64,000 nucleotides of DNA from Lachnospiraceae bacterium (GTDB taxonomy: Bacteria; Bacillota; Clostridia; Lachnospirales; Lachnospiraceae): assembly GCA_017411305.1 (NCBI GenBank), contig JAFQQI010000107.1:1-64000 (forward strand), in the 5' to 3' direction. Under the pieces are notes generated by a model. That model was not told the origin of the DNA, ran no database searches, and saw only the letters and a list, made by a program, of their open reading frames with translations. The translations under genes were made by a program, and so were the position numbers. Positions 777 through 7,223 of the stretch are shown here, one piece after another. Positions within the stretch are counted from its first letter, which is position 1, and each line of letters opens with the position of its first letter.

Positions 777-788
777 GAGGTGCTTACT

Positions 789-833
789 ATGTCAGAGATA
801 AATAGTTTCATTCCGCCAGGTAAAGATAATTGA
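789..833 (+). CDS. 14-residue peptide behind a strong ribosome site
   Basis: ATG at 789 follows AGGAGG (774-779) at good spacing and encodes MSEINSFIPPGKDN before TGA. The reading frame is too short for a family call. The next promoter's -35 element (821-824) lies inside its last codons, so it may be the stub of a deleted flagellar gene, a leader peptide, or chance. The ribosome site is the only positive evidence for translation. Confidence 0.25.
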   Translation: MSEINSFIPPGKDN

Positions 834-847
834 ATATTTGCCGATAT
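821..847 (+). promoter_or_regulatory. Sigma-28 (FliA/SigD) promoter
   Basis: TAAA at 821-824, a 15-base spacer and GCCGATAT at 840-847 match the flagellar sigma factor consensus TAAA-N15-GCCGATAA at all but the last base. Transcription would start near 853-856, just ahead of a terminator-like hairpin and then the gene at 932. Confidence 0.8.
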
Positions 848-853
848 ACTTAA

Positions 854-912
854 TAGCTAAGGATGGCGTCTGTTTTCAAAGGATTGAATGTGAAAACAGA
901 CGCTGTTTTTCG
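854..912 (+). ncRNA. Sigma-28-driven hairpin RNA or leader, copy A
   Basis: The predicted transcript opens with AGCTAAGGATG, then a perfect 13-bp stem (866-878 with 891-903) with a 12-base loop and TGTTTTT, giving a ~58-nt RNA that ends at an intrinsic terminator. A-N-G-G-A motifs, the core of CsrA-binding sites, occur before the stem (859-863) and in the loop (879-883). A second copy with stem-preserving changes lies at 4343-4403. It may act as a small RNA, or as an attenuator for the gene starting at 932. Existence as an RNA and binding by CsrA are inferences. Confidence 0.5.
866..912 (+). terminator. Intrinsic terminator, copy A
   Basis: Arms 866-878 and 891-903 are exact complements (13 bp), followed by T-rich 904-914. 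It lies downstream of the sigma-28 promoter and upstream of the ATG at 932, so it would stop the FlxA operon, and also transcripts from the promoter at 821 unless read through. Confidence 0.75.
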
Positions 913-931
913 TTTGAATTGGAGTTATATT

Positions 932-1891
932 ATGAGAATACAAGCAACAAATACATTTTATACAGGTACTTACTCTGTTTTGAATACGGAGTCATCATTT
1001 CCATATGCTGTGAAAGTTGAAGGTTACGGAAAGACAGGAAACCAAAGGAGTTTATTTCAGTTTGCCCATGTGACAATAACGGAACATATGGTAAATGCAA
1101 AATATGGTACAAAGATTACAAATGGTCCGAGAGTACAGATGCAGACAGCAGGTAGTAAGAAAAAAGAAGATTGGACTGAGGTTTCAAAAAAGCAGTTGGC
1201 AGAAGTAAAACTACCGGCTTCATTTGAAAAATTGAAAGAACAAAATTCTTATTTTTATCATGGAGAAAACATATCGGATTATGAGTTGGTGCAAACTGCA
1301 GTAGCATTGGGGAAAATGGAATTACCTACAGATGAGAAAAAGTGTAGCCCGGACAGAGTTGCAATGGATGCATTTAATGTGCTTGTCAGAGACCAGGCGG
1401 CTCCCAAAAACTCATGGTCAAATACATTGTATTCGGAAGATGGAAAATATACTTTTACAAAGACGGAAAGCGGCAGATGGCAGATGCACTTGCTTGATGA
1501 TGTTGGTATGGAAGCCTCTGTGGAAGATATTGCTAATTGGATGATGAGCGGCACGCCCAATAGAAATATTGAGACACGCTACCTAAATTATCTTCATACT
1601 GTTGATCCGGATTTGTATCATGTGGCGATGCGAATAGGTTCCGAGGTTCGTACTTATGGTTTTATGGAGGATTTACATCAGCAGGGAATATTAAGTGATA
1701 GTCAAAATCAGTATGATATGAGTCTGTTGGGTATGTTATTTGGTAAAGATGCGGATAGTATGCGTCTGTTATTGCATGGGTGCAAGGAGACCGGCAATTT
1801 TTTGGAGTTATTAGATTTGTATAGCCCGGATGGAGCAAAATCATTGGATAAGCTTCGGGAACAGCAATACAAGCACGGTGGAATTGTTTAA
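932..1891 (+). CDS. Unrecognised protein, putative flagellar regulon
   Basis: 319 residues if started at the ATG at 932, which has GGAG at 921-924. The open frame extends back to 863, but those codons would cover the terminator hairpin, so I reject the longer start. No signal peptide, membrane segment or motif I can name. The N-terminus (MRIQATNTFYTGTYSVLN) is beta-prone, and the C-terminal third (residues ~195-319) looks helical, with a leucine-rich run near the end. It is transcribed from the sigma-28 promoter at 821 if the intervening hairpin is read through, and sits between a FlxA-like gene and another sigma-28 promoter. A motility or cell-surface role is inferred from context only. Confidence 0.7.
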   Translation: MRIQATNTFYTGTYSVLNTESSFPYAVKVEGYGKTGNQRSLFQFAHVTITEHMVNAKYGTKITNGPRVQMQTAGSKKKEDWTEVSKKQLAEVKLPASFEKLKEQNSYFYHGENISDYELVQTAVALGKMELPTDEKKCSPDRVAMDAFNVLVRDQAAPKNSWSNTLYSEDGKYTFTKTESGRWQMHLLDDVGMEASVEDIANWMMSGTPNRNIETRYLNYLHTVDPDLYHVAMRIGSEVRTYGFMEDLHQQGILSDSQNQYDMSLLGMLFGKDADSMRLLLHGCKETGNFLELLDLYSPDGAKSLDKLREQQYKHGGIV

Positions 1892-1949
1892 TACAAAAAA
1901 GCAGTAAAGATTGATGTATCACTCTAATTTCAGATTTCGTTCTATTTGA

Positions 1950-1976
1950 ACAAGAAAAAAGAATTATTACCGATAT
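1950..1976 (+). promoter_or_regulatory. Sigma-28 promoter and structured leader
   Basis: ACCGATAT at 1969-1976 is preceded at 15 bases by ACAA, a weak -35, in a context (AAGAAAAAAGAAT) shared with the promoter at 4311. The ~60-nt leader contains two possible stems (1980-1984 with 1999-2003; 2005-2011 with 2024-2030), the second ending just before the AAAGGAG ribosome site at 2033-2039. Confidence 0.6.
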
Positions 1977-2043
1977 ATACCACTTGGTCCTTTCGGAGAG
2001 TGGTGAGGTTCTGACTGACAGAGGAACCTCAGAAAGGAGAATT

Positions 2044-4107
2044 ATGCAGGTAGGAAGTAGTGTCAGCAACAGGTATTATACATCGTATCAGACGAATACG
2101 AGTGTGAAATACTTTGCAGATTTTTCACAGACAGAAGATGGGAAACTGATATCCAATGAAAAAAAATCACAGGATTTAACAGAAAATCCCGGATTTGCAG
2201 AGCTTGCGGATTATCAGGAATTTCACAAGGCATGGATGTCCCAAAGGGGAGTGACAAAGACTGTAGAAGTTTGTACCGAAAAGCAGACCGGAGCAGTATC
2301 CATAGCTGAAACTGAGGACGATGGAGAATTTTTGGGACTTACTATGGTTCCGGAAGAAGGTCAGTCTGTTACCTATGGTATGCGGGCAATGCTTAGTGAA
2401 AAGTCCACACCGGATAATCCCATAGTACAGGTGGTTTCGAATCTTGGCGGTAAGAAGGTAATCTATAATGTAGAAGTGAATAAGGTAAACCCTAATAATG
2501 CAACACAACTTGAGATGTTCGCATTGTTAAGTTACACCGATAAGATGGGAATTACAGATGGAGGAACCTTTGGCTCTCATCAGCTGCTTGAGGTATATGG
2601 AGGAAATGCAAGCAGTATCGGATATTGCGGAAGCCTTTCAGGTGCAGATGTGTTTTTGAATGAAAGATTTGATTGGACATCCATCATGGAGAAGATGATA
2701 CAGGTATACAAGGACGCCGGAATAGAGAATCAGGCAGAGGATTGTAAAGCATTATTTGATTTTTTTGCTACATATACAGCGAATAATGAAGTGAAAGATA
2801 ATACTGCAATTGATTTTTCACGATTTGCACCAAATGCTCCGGAGGAAGTAAAACAGGCATTTATGGAAGCTGCTGAAGAAACCGGGTACAACGAAGGTGA
2901 GAGAATGGATTACCTTTCACAAGTTTTTATACATCAGGTAGAGAACAGACAGAACGGTGTGGCAGATTACACGGATGTATTTGGCGGTTCTGTAGCATCC
3001 GCATTACAAGCGGCAAGAGAGATGCTGTATGACTTGGAAAATCCTCTTATGCCGATAGGCCAGCGGGGGGAAAAAGCCGCTAAATATGTGGAGCAGGAAA
3101 AGGAGTTTTACAGAGCATTTATTGAAAAACTGGAAGGATTAACAGGTACAGATACTGCTGACACAGAGGAAACAGTGGATTATGCAAAAATTCTGGAAGA
3201 AAAGATAAATGAGATTTTTGCAAAAATTCAAGATGGGGATACGGAAGCCTCATATCAGATTGGCTCACAGTCTTTCACAGAAAAAGAGTGGGAGGAGTTC
3301 CTTGACAAATTTGATTCCGTCCAAGAGGCAATTCAGGAACTAATGAAGGAGGAGCAGGCTAGAAAAGAGGAAAAGGAAAACAAAAAGGAAGATGTGTTTA
3401 CTACTGATGCAAGCACTTTATTAACCACAGAATCCACTTCTTGTGTGTATGAAACTGCTGATCCGGATGATGACGATATCCGTTATATCACATGGTATAC
3501 CGAGGAAGGCATTTTCTGTAGAAAAGCGGGACAGACCGAAGGGTATGAGTGGTCTATTACCTTTGAAAATAAGGAACAGTATGACAAAGTTATGGAATTT
3601 ATCGGACAGTTCCCTTCTGACTGGAATATGCGTTTTGCAGCCCATAAAAATTTCTGGAATGATTTTCTGAATGATGAGATTGACATGGAAGGCTTTATGG
3701 AGTTTATCAATGGAACAAATAAGGGCGTTCCTGATTACTCCATTACGGTAGGGGATTCCATGTATATTGACAAAGACAAAATGCAGTGGGCGAAGTATAC
3801 TAATCCGTTAGGAGTCAGATTCTATACATCAGAAGAAATGCATCAGATGCAAATGGAGATTATGGCCGCGAATGAGGAAAAATTGAAAGCACAGCAGGTT
3901 TCTTATGAGGAAATGTATAAGAGAACTCATCCTGAGTACAACGGGGAGAGAATATTCCGCACAATTTCAGGAGGACAATTATATACAGCGAATGAAATTG
4001 ATGAGTTGCTTTATAAGGAAATGTTGGAGCGTATGGGCACAACAGAAGAGAGGGAGCAGCAGAAACGTGAGGAATGGAGAAAGCAGATGGGCTATCCGGG
4101 ATATTAG
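2044..4107 (+). CDS. Large unrecognised protein, putative flagellar regulon
   Basis: 687 residues from the ATG at 2044, which follows AAAGGAG (2033-2039). The frame is open to 1984, but that region is the promoter leader. No signal peptide or membrane span. Residues 1-190 are mixed alpha/beta, 230-330 helical, 380-470 a charged coiled coil with many E and K, 480-600 mixed, and the C-terminus (610-687) strongly helical and basic, ending EEWRKQMGYPGY. I cannot assign a family. Its own sigma-28-type promoter and its place between flagellar-type genes suggest a late flagellar or surface function. Codon use matches the neighbours. Length and lack of recognisable domains make it one of the more novel genes here. 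Confidence 0.75.
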   Translation: MQVGSSVSNRYYTSYQTNTSVKYFADFSQTEDGKLISNEKKSQDLTENPGFAELADYQEFHKAWMSQRGVTKTVEVCTEKQTGAVSIAETEDDGEFLGLTMVPEEGQSVTYGMRAMLSEKSTPDNPIVQVVSNLGGKKVIYNVEVNKVNPNNATQLEMFALLSYTDKMGITDGGTFGSHQLLEVYGGNASSIGYCGSLSGADVFLNERFDWTSIMEKMIQVYKDAGIENQAEDCKALFDFFATYTANNEVKDNTAIDFSRFAPNAPEEVKQAFMEAAEETGYNEGERMDYLSQVFIHQVENRQNGVADYTDVFGGSVASALQAAREMLYDLENPLMPIGQRGEKAAKYVEQEKEFYRAFIEKLEGLTGTDTADTEETVDYAKILEEKINEIFAKIQDGDTEASYQIGSQSFTEKEWEEFLDKFDSVQEAIQELMKEEQARKEEKENKKEDVFTTDASTLLTTESTSCVYETADPDDDDIRYITWYTEEGIFCRKAGQTEGYEWSITFENKEQYDKVMEFIGQFPSDWNMRFAAHKNFWNDFLNDEIDMEGFMEFINGTNKGVPDYSITVGDSMYIDKDKMQWAKYTNPLGVRFYTSEEMHQMQMEIMAANEEKLKAQQVSYEEMYKRTHPEYNGERIFRTISGGQLYTANEIDELLYKEMLERMGTTEEREQQKREEWRKQMGYPGY

Positions 4108-4127
4108 GTCAGAGTCAGAAAGGATGA

Positions 4128-4270
4128 GATGATGAGTAATCCGATGCTCTTATGTCCTATGCAAGTCTGCAGACGGGAGAATCTGGAATGATATTATGTA
4201 GTTTGCGTATTGCTTTGGAGATATGAAAGGTTACATGGAGTGGAAGAAGTATGTGGCTCTGATTGGGTGA
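4128..4270 (+). pseudogene. Probable frameshifted gene relic
   Basis: An ATG at 4132 opens only 19 codons, but reading 4138-4195 one frame over and then a third frame to 4270 gives plausible protein-like sequence, broken by TGA and TAG. No family can be named. Composition does not set it apart from the flanking genes. It could equally be ordinary spacer. Confidence 0.3.
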
Positions 4271-4310
4271 TTGCGGAAGAATGATAAATTAGGGTTTTGT
4301 TCCATTGAAG

Positions 4311-4337
4311 TAAGAAAAAAAGAATATTTGTCGATGC
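4311..4337 (+). promoter_or_regulatory. Sigma-28-like promoter
   Basis: TAAG at 4311-4314, 15 bases, GTCGATGC at 4330-4337. It is a weaker match than the one at 821, but stands in the same position relative to a copy of the same hairpin element. Confidence 0.5.
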
Positions 4338-4342
4338 ATATT

Positions 4343-4403
4343 ATCAGCTAAGGATGGCGTCTGTTTTCAAGGGAGTGAGTGTGGAAATGGACGCTATTTT
4401 TAT
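4343..4403 (+). ncRNA. Sigma-28-driven hairpin RNA, copy B
   Basis: Second copy of the element at 854-912. It shares AGCTAAGGATGGCGTCTGTT and then diverges. The right arm (4382-4394) differs from copy A, yet all 13 pairs are kept, three as G-U, so the structure rather than the sequence seems to be held. A-N-G-G-A motifs again fall 20 bases apart (4350-4354 and 4370-4374), the second in the loop. No intact gene follows for nearly 290 bases, so here it cannot simply be a leader of an adjacent gene. Confidence 0.5.
4357..4401 (+). terminator. Intrinsic terminator, copy B
   Basis: Stem 4357-4369 with 4382-4394 (13 pairs, three G-U), then TATTTTTATTT. The T tract is strong. Confidence 0.65.
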
Positions 4404-4453
4404 TTAAGAAAGAATTTCATTCCCGTTCAGATGGGGTTTCGTTCCTTTTGTCC

Positions 4454-4480
4454 CAAAATGGCAAAAAAAGGTGCCGATAT
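4454..4480 (+). promoter_or_regulatory. Orphan sigma-28 promoter
   Basis: CAAA at 4454-4457, 15 bases, GCCGATAT at 4473-4480, a near-consensus match. Only a 16-codon open frame (4495-4545) follows before the mannosidase 200 bases on, which suggests that its original gene has been lost or that it makes an RNA. Confidence 0.6.
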
Positions 4481-4567
4481 ATGAAATGAGAACCATGAAG
4501 AAAAGAAAGTTAGATATGATATTAGGTTTTGATTTGAATGAATGAATGTAAGGGTGATGAAGCGGGC

Positions 4568-4616
4568 AGGAATTTATAAAGTATGGATTGTGTAGGAATT
4601 TATAAAGTATGGATTG
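4568..4616 (+). repeat. Tandem 23-bp direct repeat
   Basis: AGGAATTTATAAAGTATGGA plus TTG occurs at 4568-4590 and again exactly at 4594-4616, a 26-base period, just upstream of the mannosidase promoter. It looks like a recent slippage duplication. Confidence 0.9.
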
Positions 4617-4688: not shown

Positions 4689-7160
4689 ATGATTGACTTA
4701 ACAGGCTTATGGAATATGAAATGCACGGAAGACGCTGATTGGCAGGAGGCTGTCGTACCCGGCAGTGTATATACAGACCTTCTTAGAAACGGTAACATGA
4801 AGGACCCCTTCGTAGGAGAAAATGAATATGAAATTTGTCAGTTATCCGAATACGACTATGAGTACACAAAAACTTTTGTCATAGAACAGGACGACCTAGA
4901 CTTTCAGCAGCTTGTCCTGGTTTGCGAGGGGCTGGATACCCTTGCTGAAATCTGTATCAATGATACGTTAATTGCCAGAACAAATAACATGCACCGTACC
5001 TATCGTTTTGATATTAAACCTCTTTTACAAATCGGTGAAAACACCATACATATTTTATTCCGTTCCCCCCTGCAGTTTGTCCGTAAGGCTGATGAAAAGA
5101 AACCTTTATGGGGCGTTTCCAGTACAGTACCCGGATATCAGCATATCCGTAAGGGACATCATATGTTTGGTTGGGATTGGGGGCCCAAACTTCCGGACCT
5201 TGGTGTTTTCAGAAATATTTATATTGAAAAATTGCAGGAGGCACGGGTAAAAGACTTCTATGTAACGCAGGAGCATAAAGACGGAAGCGTAACCCTGAAC
5301 ATCGATATTGAGAATGAATTTGCGACGGATAGCAGCACAAGCAGTTCTTTCACGGAAACCCTGACCATTTGTGATGAGGAAAAGAACGTAATCTGGGAAG
5401 GCAGCACAGAGCTGAAGCCGGAAAACAATATGACCTGCACCATTGATAATCCCAAGCTTTGGTGGCCAAACGGCTACGGTGAGCAGCCTTTATATACCGT
5501 AACCGTTACCTTGTCAAAAGACGGCGAAGAAATTTCCCGCAAAGAAAAGCGTATCGGTCTCCGTACCCTGACTATGAAGCGAAAGAAAGACCGCTACGGA
5601 GAAACTTTCGGCTTTGAAATCAACGGAGTTATGATTTTTGCAAAGGGAGCAAATTATATTCCCGAAGATAATCTTTACGGGCGGACAAATGCTGAGAAGA
5701 CCCGGAAATTATTACATACCTGTATTGCAGCAAATTTTAACTGTATCCGTATCTGGGGCGGCGGTAATTATCCGGAAAGCTATTTCTATGATATCTGTGA
5801 TGAACTGGGCTTAATTGTATGGCAGGACTTTATGTTTGCATGTGCTGCTTACGATTTGACGGAGGAATTTGAGGAAAATATTAAGGCAGAGTTTGAGGAC
5901 AATATCAGAAGGCTGCGCAATCATGCATCCCTCGGCATGTGGTGTGGTAACAATGAAATGGAATCTGCGTGGCTTTACTGGGGACTTCCCGAAAATAAAA
6001 AGCTCCATCAGGATTATCTGACCATGTTTGAACGAATCATTCCGGAAGCAGCAAACCGCTTTGATCCGGAAACCTTTTACTGGCCTTCCTCCCCCTCTTC
6101 AGGCGGCGGATTTGACAAGACCTGTGAAGAAGGCTACGGGGATGCCCACTATTGGGATGTATGGCATGGCAAAAAGCCATTTGAAGATTTTGAAAATCTG
6201 TATTTCCGTTTTGCAAGTGAATACGGATTCCAGTCTGCCCCTTCCATGAAGACGATCAGAACCTTTGCAGAAGGCGATGATTTAAATATGTTTTCCAATG
6301 TAATGGAAAATCATCAGAAGTGTATTGATAACGGACACGGAAATGTAACCTTAATGACCTATCTGCATAACTATTATCAGATGCCTAAGGATTTTGCAAC
6401 AACACTTTACACCACCCAGATTTTGCAGGCAGATTGTCTGGAAATTGCGATTTCCCATTTCAGAAGCCACAGAGGAAGGTGTTTGGGAAGCACCTACTGG
6501 CAGCTAAATGACTGCAATCCCGTAATTTCCTGGTCCACCATTGATTATTTCGGACGCTGGAAAGCAGCACATTATGTGGTGAAACGTTGTTATGAACCTA
6601 CGATTGTCAATATGCGTAAGGATGAAAACGAGCTGATTTTCTATGTATCAACGGAGCTTATGGAAAGGGAAGAATATACATTCTCTTACAAAATCATCCA
6701 TCAGCAGAAAGGGGAGATAAAATCTGATAGCTTACCGGTTTCCGTATCACCCTTATCTGCCAAAGAAATTTGCAGAGTTACCGTACCGGAAATGGAACTT
6801 GCGGATATTCGTAACTGCTATGTGGTATATGAATTAAAGAAAAACGAAGCAGTGGTTGCTTTGCGGACGGCCCTTCTTGTAAAACCCAAGCAGTTTGCCT
6901 TTAGAAACCCTGAAATAACTGTAAGCTGGTGCGAAAAAGAGGCGGCCTATGAATTAACGTTAAATGCCAAAGAATATGCAAGAAGAGTGTGTGCAGACTT
7001 TGTCAATATTGATGCAGTACTTTCAGATAACTGTTTTGATTTGCTTCCGGGAGTGGCAAAGACGGTTACAATTGCAAAGAGCAAACTGCCGGAAGGAACG
7101 GATTTAAGCATACTGCAAAAAGAATTGGAACTTATGAGCTGCTACCATATTACGAAATAA
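4689..7160 (+). CDS. Beta-mannosidase, glycoside hydrolase family 2
   Basis: 823 residues. Hydrolyses terminal beta-1,4-mannosyl residues of manno-oligosaccharides. Order: sugar-binding-like beta domain (about 1-180), immunoglobulin-like domain (190-295), TIM barrel (300-600), C-terminal beta domains. The barrel has RIWGGGNYPES, WQDFMFACAAY and WCGNNE with the acid/base Glu423, and FASEYGFQSAPS with the nucleophile Glu511, the pattern of family 2 mannosidases rather than galactosidases. No signal peptide, so it acts in the cytoplasm on imported oligosaccharides. GGAGG at 4677-4681 fixes the start. No transporter or other mannan gene adjoins. It sits inside a flagellar-regulon cluster and overlaps by its 3' end the next sigma-28-like promoter, suggesting insertion there. 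Confidence 0.92.
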   Translation: MIDLTGLWNMKCTEDADWQEAVVPGSVYTDLLRNGNMKDPFVGENEYEICQLSEYDYEYTKTFVIEQDDLDFQQLVLVCEGLDTLAEICINDTLIARTNNMHRTYRFDIKPLLQIGENTIHILFRSPLQFVRKADEKKPLWGVSSTVPGYQHIRKGHHMFGWDWGPKLPDLGVFRNIYIEKLQEARVKDFYVTQEHKDGSVTLNIDIENEFATDSSTSSSFTETLTICDEEKNVIWEGSTELKPENNMTCTIDNPKLWWPNGYGEQPLYTVTVTLSKDGEEISRKEKRIGLRTLTMKRKKDRYGETFGFEINGVMIFAKGANYIPEDNLYGRTNAEKTRKLLHTCIAANFNCIRIWGGGNYPESYFYDICDELGLIVWQDFMFACAAYDLTEEFEENIKAEFEDNIRRLRNHASLGMWCGNNEMESAWLYWGLPENKKLHQDYLTMFERIIPEAANRFDPETFYWPSSPSSGGGFDKTCEEGYGDAHYWDVWHGKKPFEDFENLYFRFASEYGFQSAPSMKTIRTFAEGDDLNMFSNVMENHQKCIDNGHGNVTLMTYLHNYYQMPKDFATTLYTTQILQADCLEIAISHFRSHRGRCLGSTYWQLNDCNPVISWSTIDYFGRWKAAHYVVKRCYEPTIVNMRKDENELIFYVSTELMEREEYTFSYKIIHQQKGEIKSDSLPVSVSPLSAKEICRVTVPEMELADIRNCYVVYELKKNEAVVALRTALLVKPKQFAFRNPEITVSWCEKEAAYELTLNAKEYARRVCADFVNIDAVLSDNCFDLLPGVAKTVTIAKSKLPEGTDLSILQKELELMSCYHITK

Positions 7161-7176
7161 TATAATCTGCCGATAT
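7150..7176 (+). promoter_or_regulatory. Sigma-28-like promoter and CsrA-type leader
   Basis: GCCGATAT at 7169-7176 is a full -10 match. The -35 (TTAC at 7150-7153, inside the mannosidase 3' end) is weak. The leader has two AAGGATG motifs at 7190-7196 and 7212-7218, 22 bases apart, the second serving as ribosome site for the ATG at 7224. That layout is like CsrA-controlled flagellin leaders. Confidence 0.55.
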
Positions 7177-7223
7177 AGTTATTGATACAAGGATGTAGCA
7201 ATGAAACATAAGGATGTGGTCAT

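Follow-up and report, generated by a model that had tools for sequence, protein, structure and literature searches.

Introduction

The best-known target of CsrA in Firmicutes is the flagellin mRNA. In the hag leader of Bacillus subtilis, where CsrA and FliW control flagellin through a translational block, we know of no conserved terminator. Campylobacter jejuni, in which a sigma-28-dependent flagellar leader (flaA) is controlled by CsrA, belongs to another phylum than the gut bacteria studied here. According to excerpts of the respective papers, CsrA blocks ribosome binding on the B. subtilis hag mRNA (PMC6529632), and the C. jejuni flaA leader has two GGA hexaloops 21 nt apart, is bound by CsrA and can titrate it, the optimum GGA spacing being cited as 18 nt (PMC4894983). 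In the E. coli pgaA leader, CsrA changes folding and termination (excerpts of PMC7652899). The CsrB, CsrC and RsmZ sponges present GGA motifs in hairpin loops (excerpts of PMC7652899 and PMC4894983).

The leader element described here resembles flaA in its upstream sigma-28 promoter and in its two GGA sites, which are predicted CsrA sites, lie 17-21 nt apart and have a predicted hexaloop form. At flaA, CsrA blocks flagellin translation, whereas in the present element the two sites overlap with a stem resembling a terminator, and most of the many genes downstream are unannotated. The overlap with the Shine-Dalgarno sequence known from flaA and hag was not found: both sites are inside the element, and the probable starts of the genes follow its end at a median of 54.5 nt. 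The element would share the CsrA-FliW theme with hag. As at pgaA, CsrA binding is proposed to alter leader folding and transcription termination; however, pgaA termination is Rho-dependent and promoted by CsrA, while here the stop would be intrinsic. CsrB, CsrC and RsmZ are stand-alone RNAs with many sites, whereas the present element has two sites per copy in about 55 nt, mostly before genes.

Results and discussion

The element in the window

The window is the whole stretch of DNA that was analysed, 64,000 nt (positions 1 to 64,000 of contig JAFQQI010000107.1, assembly GCA_017411305.1, a Lachnospiraceae bacterium). It holds a first copy of the element behind a FlxA-like gene (9-776). Two structure models are used below, R1 from three copies and R2 from 72; copy 1 is itself among the sequences from which both were built, which applies to its scores in this list.

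821..847, + strand: sigma-28-type promoter, TAAA (821-824)-N15-GCCGATAT (840-847), from the sequence
855..910, + strand: leader RNA element, copy 1 (R1 82.3 bits, R2 78 bits)
859..863, + strand: 5' ANGGA site (AAGGA), from the sequence and the family alignment
865..904, + strand: outer stem of the terminator-like hairpin (865-878 with 891-904), from covariation
879..883, + strand: loop ANGGA site (AAGGA), from the sequence and the family alignment
905..910, + strand: U tract 3' of the stem, GTTTTT, from T counts across copies
932..1891, + strand: downstream gene, 319 aa, with element-following homologues in other genomes
4311..4337, + strand: degenerate sigma-28-like promoter of copy 2, TAAG-N15-GTCGATGC, from the sequence
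4346..4401, + strand: element copy 2, an orphan, from the model match

The folding energy of copy 1 (73 nt) was -26.2 kcal/mol (z -5.6), and none of 200 shuffles was equally stable. Two smaller hairpins are predicted as well, each with the hexaloop AAGGAU: GCU (856-858) might pair with GGC (865-867) around the 5' site, and UUCA (875-878) with UGAA (885-888) could close the loop around the second one. The original prediction had placed a hairpin with a T tract directly behind a flagellar promoter, with two A-N-G-G-A motifs 20 bases apart, a distance suited to a CsrA dimer. We found all of this at 855-910, the GGA starts of copy 1 being exactly 20 nt apart. Its stem of 13 bp gained one further G-U pair, 14 in all. 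A second copy had also been predicted, with both motifs kept and the stem maintained through G-U changes, and it is present (4341-4401): 85% identical to copy 1, it retains AAGGA and AGGGA and keeps its stem by G-U pairs. It folds with -23.1 kcal/mol (z -4.5; 0 of 200 shuffles as stable). Its -10 box is degenerate (GTCGATGC), and the nearest likely gene start, of a family 2 glycoside hydrolase, is 287 nt downstream. No described family had been known for such an RNA, and Rfam 15 gave no match at the gathering threshold in the window or in 14 further loci (7 + 7), nor any up to E 5 in window 780-4600. Going by Rfam and open-licence papers, the family seems undescribed.

Size and spread of the family

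A 26-mer sequence search (up to 3 mismatches, 194 genomes) returned only the window's own genome, G000, and the close relative G007. This was too narrow, so we turned to a structure model. Within the genus, neighbouring genes had leaders of the same layout whose stem was different. Three copies that had not been fitted to any structure (two from the window, one from G012) already pair at all 14 positions, with five pairs changed on both sides. R1, built from these three, was run on 37 genomes of the genus, and about 20 of them had convincing copies by eye, including G024 and G033, which were identified by leader inspection. A degenerate-pattern scan of 84,980 species gave 63 stretches, where our arithmetic for even base composition expects fewer than one by chance. 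All were titled as Lachnospiraceae, a genus thereof, or an uncultured or unplaced bacterium, and the named cultures among them were Roseburia inulinivorans DSM 16841, Pseudobutyrivibrio ruminis DSM 9787 and Parablautia. R2 matched 58 of 397 family genomes at E 0.01, with 12 copies in G304, and 38 of 392 genomes of the order at E 0.001. Four of the latter are outside the family: G576, G121 and G655 have both GGA motifs, with CGATA within 50 nt in G121 and G655 and not in G576, while the match in G119 is a palindromic terminator without GGA motifs. The covariance-model search that had been suggested yielded further copies in the genus, the family and the order, and the pattern scan across species gave others.

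In the loci read there were 122 distinct copies, from Lachnospiraceae and three other families of the order, a number that omits some variants since the copies in L084/L085 (G033, G024) and L087 (G003) were missed by R1 and R2 at the thresholds used. Three antisense matches (L235, L239, window), both L274 matches and both L300 matches were left out before the counts. Match sequences were inspected for 38 of the 58 element-bearing family genomes. Among the weak matches, L270, L272, L273 and L274 come from csrA-less genomes and show a broken two-motif pattern with no CGATA within 50 nt; the R2 matches in the csrA-bearing G112 and G477 likewise do not have the two-motif pattern. Patterns of a promoter plus two AAGGA matched 21 times in the 37 genus genomes (reversed controls 7) and 50 times in the 397 family genomes (controls about 17), and these matches were not used for counting copies. 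In G304 (L275, L276), several of the 12 copies precede related unannotated genes, a candidate regulon.

Covariation and conserved motifs

In an alignment of 106 distinct rows, 96.3% of the stem cells were paired, 247 cells were double-changed and 13 of the 14 pairs had changed on both sides. Neither the pairing nor the double changes were reached in 500 shuffles, and slid structures paired 37-59%. The alignment was fitted to the structure under test, which favours it, and the three unfitted rows agree. We regard a conserved structured RNA as virtually certain, and judged by the family data copy 1 is not a product of chance.

Each motif has the form A-N-G-G-A, in which N is free, as is the base that follows the motif. 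At the 5' site A, G and G were present in 113 of 113 rows and the final A in 112. These figures are partly selected by the scan pattern, and the models also weight GGA; in the 48 copies outside the pattern, the 5' motif had A, G, G and A in 48/48 and the loop motif had A in 46, G in 48, G in 47 and A in 48. The GGA spacing was 17-21 nt in all 106 rows and 20 nt in 60 of them.

The preferred CsrA site is GGA in a hairpin loop, mostly of six nucleotides (excerpts of PMC7652899). The 5' and the inner mini-hairpin were each fully paired in 94 of the 106 rows, and both in 83; among the 48 pattern-independent copies it was 37 for each. Columns 4 and 12 of the 5' mini-hairpin pair in 114 of 125 rows, a level reached in 2 of 10000 permutations, although these columns vary little, the permutations ignore relatedness and the top pair is broken in the other 11 rows. 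In alignment A9 the 5' mini-hairpin pairs in 86% of cells, with 20 of 500 shuffles as high. It takes the form GCA/UGC in L267, L292 and L296, and GGU replaces GGA in L292 and L296. Covariation of the 5' mini-hairpin is modest.

Promoter

A promoter match alone is weak evidence, since TAAA-N14-16-CCGATA occurred at 53 sites in the assembly and its reversed control at 45. Across the family, CGATA lies within 75 nt upstream of 99 of the 122 distinct copies, and of 61 of the 75 distinct R1 copies, for which the other strand gave 3 and shuffles 5.6. The sigma-28 origin that had been proposed is borne out by these counts, and we hold the promoter to be very probably of this type. The ACGATA variants among the copies fit the Butyrivibrio sigma-28 consensus, TAAA-N16-17-MCGATAa, given in the available part of PMC3720852. 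The commonest distance from CGATA to the element was 8 nt, so the RNA should often begin at the element or just before it.

An ordinary terminator of the upstream operon, joined by chance to a promoter and GGA motifs, would also place a GC-rich hairpin and a U tract behind the FlxA-like gene. This is hardly credible, as the promoter, both GGA motifs and the following gene are conserved across many genera, and a conserved family refutes it. No more credit can be given to a coding sequence from ATG 863. Read from 863, the frame stays open up to 1891, but this start would need ANGGATG, and many copies have AAGGAGA or similar, including the L235 copy before a homologue of ORF 932.

Probable terminator and downstream genes

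The scan pattern ends in the loop, so the 3' side of the copies it found is informative. Of the 57 distinct copies, 54 have a pairing 3' arm (shuffled 3' sides: mean 13.9, maximum 23), and 49 of these 54 have at least five T in the next 8 nt, compared with 2 for a control stretch. Among model-found copies at least five T of 8 follow the stem in 100 of 106 (control stretch 4), a count on which it bears that the model includes six positions after the stem. Real termination at this hairpin is likely.

A likely gene start was found within 130 nt of 93 of 111 copies, a set without the 11 copies that have less than 650 nt downstream. The same was true for 24% of 555 random same-strand places and for 2 copies on the other strand. 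With several weak matches included, 110 of 117 copies had a likely gene start within 420 nt and 95 within 130 nt; we rely on 130 nt because random places already reach 55% at 420 nt. With stem and then U tract lying between promoter and gene, the layout of an attenuator is present. In the window, only 19 nt separate 912 from the start codon at 932, which leaves no space for another promoter, so this gene must be transcribed through the hairpin or from upstream. Its 319-aa product had no Pfam match. In a Pfam scan of ten proteins (eight encoded downstream of elements, two from window genes), one protein passed a cut-off, with LytTR, and one had a FliD_C match that stayed below it. Several N-termini of downstream proteins recur across genomes, and the element flags gene families of unknown function as likely late flagellar genes. 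The comparison of copies shows a sigma-28-type promoter, a covarying stem, a U tract, an ANGGA pair about 20 nt apart and a downstream gene, and the element would mainly be a leader with an internal terminator.

The original prediction had offered two roles, an attenuator in front of the gene and a small CsrA-titrating RNA. The first fits most copies, given their distance from gene starts, and the second, as a stand-alone RNA, fits a few orphans such as 4346-4401. A CsrA sponge would have the terminated RNA of about 55 nt as its product, made only with active sigma-28, and the gene would be incidental. It is favoured by the two CsrA-type sites at a spacing suited to a dimer, by a U tract at which the RNA would end, by the orphan copy in the window and by the 12 copies in G304. 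However, 93 of 111 copies are near a gene start, far above random places, orphans are few and the orphan in the window has a degenerate promoter. Moreover, when the complete RNA is folded, the best structure of several copies has the 5' ANGGA paired with the U tract, so that the 5' site may be masked. We consider a sponge as the main role unlikely; terminated leaders could also titrate CsrA.

Another explanation makes the hairpin a stabilising 5' structure and not a terminator, with CsrA acting on stability or translation from the 5' end. The frequent distance of 8 nt from CGATA puts both sites near the 5' end, similar to E. coli flhDC, whose 5' end is shielded by CsrA (excerpts of PMC7652899). 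Since the two sites are not at the Shine-Dalgarno sequence (the element ends a median of 54.5 nt before the gene start) and this reading leaves the conserved U tract directly after the stem unexplained, we find it rather improbable.

csrA in element-bearing genomes

The suggested search for csrA succeeded in the group. It is present in 33 of the 37 genus genomes, among them the close relative G007 (94% complete), and was not found in the window's own assembly G000, which is 82.6% complete. Element-bearing G004 (86% complete) and G033 (96% complete) gave no csrA match either. Within the genus about 17 of 20 element-bearing genomes (by eye) and 16 of 17 others have csrA, which is no association. 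Across the family, where the sample had mostly a single genome for each genus, it was present in 52 of 58 element-bearing genomes vs 157 of 339 others (Fisher 1.2e-10, the weak matches L270 and L272-L274 being counted as misses), a link that is confounded because csrA and sigma-28 both travel with flagella. The six csrA-less genomes are four with these pattern-breaking matches, G000 and G248 (81% complete). For all Eubacterium and Roseburia genomes examined in PMC3720852, the available part of that paper reports csrA at the flagellar locus. From the sequence evidence we take CsrA to be the probable ligand, with an estimate slightly lowered by the nearly complete, element-bearing G033 without csrA.

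A proposed model for CsrA at the leader

We lean towards reading the element as the 5' leader of sigma-28-dependent genes with an intrinsic terminator and a two-site CsrA target. In this model a single CsrA dimer would grip the two sites while the RNA is still being made. The 5' mini-hairpin, GCU-ANGGAN-RGC, would borrow bases that the terminator stem needs for its foot, and the inner one, UUCA-ANGGAN-UGAA, would compete with the top of that stem. CsrA binding would weaken the terminator and let the polymerase continue into the gene, while in the absence of free CsrA, for example when it is bound by FliW, transcription would terminate, with a leader RNA of about 55 nt as the product. In all 106 copies the terminator fold was more stable than the two-mini-hairpin fold (mean -14.0 vs -4.4 kcal/mol), which means that CsrA would need to bind early or else overcome a difference of about 10 kcal/mol.

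We see an even chance that CsrA controls read-through at all, and that it favours read-through instead of blocking it is a tentative proposal. It is possible, if short of probable, that the copies are CsrA-switched attenuators with intrinsic terminators, in which a dimer on two hexaloops, one of them made from the terminator foot, decides between a stop and late flagellar genes, and each stop frees a CsrA-binding small RNA, giving a feedback loop with FliW and flagellin. Among open-licence papers we found none testing a CsrA read-through mechanism on this leader. The element marks candidate CsrA targets, mostly unannotated genes, across many motile gut genera including Roseburia inulinivorans, and its copies may be switches that couple downstream genes to flagellum building. 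What it offers is a set of predicted targets, together with a model, testable in vitro, in which CsrA acts on intrinsic termination.

A missing third copy and neighbouring leaders

A further gene in the window has an element in front of it only in the relative.

1969..1976, + strand: -10 box of the ORF 2044 leader; G007 has a third element copy at this place
2044..4107, + strand: gene, 687 aa; the G007 orthologue is 97% identical and follows an element copy

Compared with G007, the third copy is absent from the window as an 83-nt gap at the -10 box, with the box kept, and there is another gap of 22 nt upstream. The element can thus be lost as a unit. The missing copy might also be an assembly error.

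The leader that remains at window 1980-2038 is of a second conserved type, in which two hairpins (CCRCTYGGNCCTTTC-GGA... and ...CTGACTGACAGA...) are followed by AGAAAGGAG and the start codon. This type was also seen in L086, L222, L240, L073, L074 and others, with no Rfam match in the loci searched. By a strict regular expression it stands behind the element in 19 of 122 copies, and at window 1980-2038, L073 and L074 it occurs without the element.

Other short features were noted nearby. Between the FlxA-like gene and the promoter, at 789-833, an open frame of 14 codons has a good Shine-Dalgarno sequence. Directly after copy 2 there is a sigma-28-like promoter, CAAA-N15-GCCGATAT (4454-4480). 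Its G007 counterpart precedes an apparent response-regulator gene and the one in the window precedes the glycoside hydrolase gene at 4689, so the junction differs. At 7169-7223 a sigma-28-like -10 is followed by ACAAGGAUGU and CAUAAGGAUGU before gene 7224; these are near the CsrA SELEX consensus, and a terminator is absent. In a similar leader of G007 (L006 near 3776, minus strand), the loop of a small hairpin holds one AAGGA.

Two loci hold damaged elements. In MAG RUG297 (L219:454-532), the 3' half is gone and the 5' half is joined directly to the middle part of an ORF 932 homologue. At L207:2555-2604 a decayed element before the second leader type has kept its stem and lost both GGA motifs.
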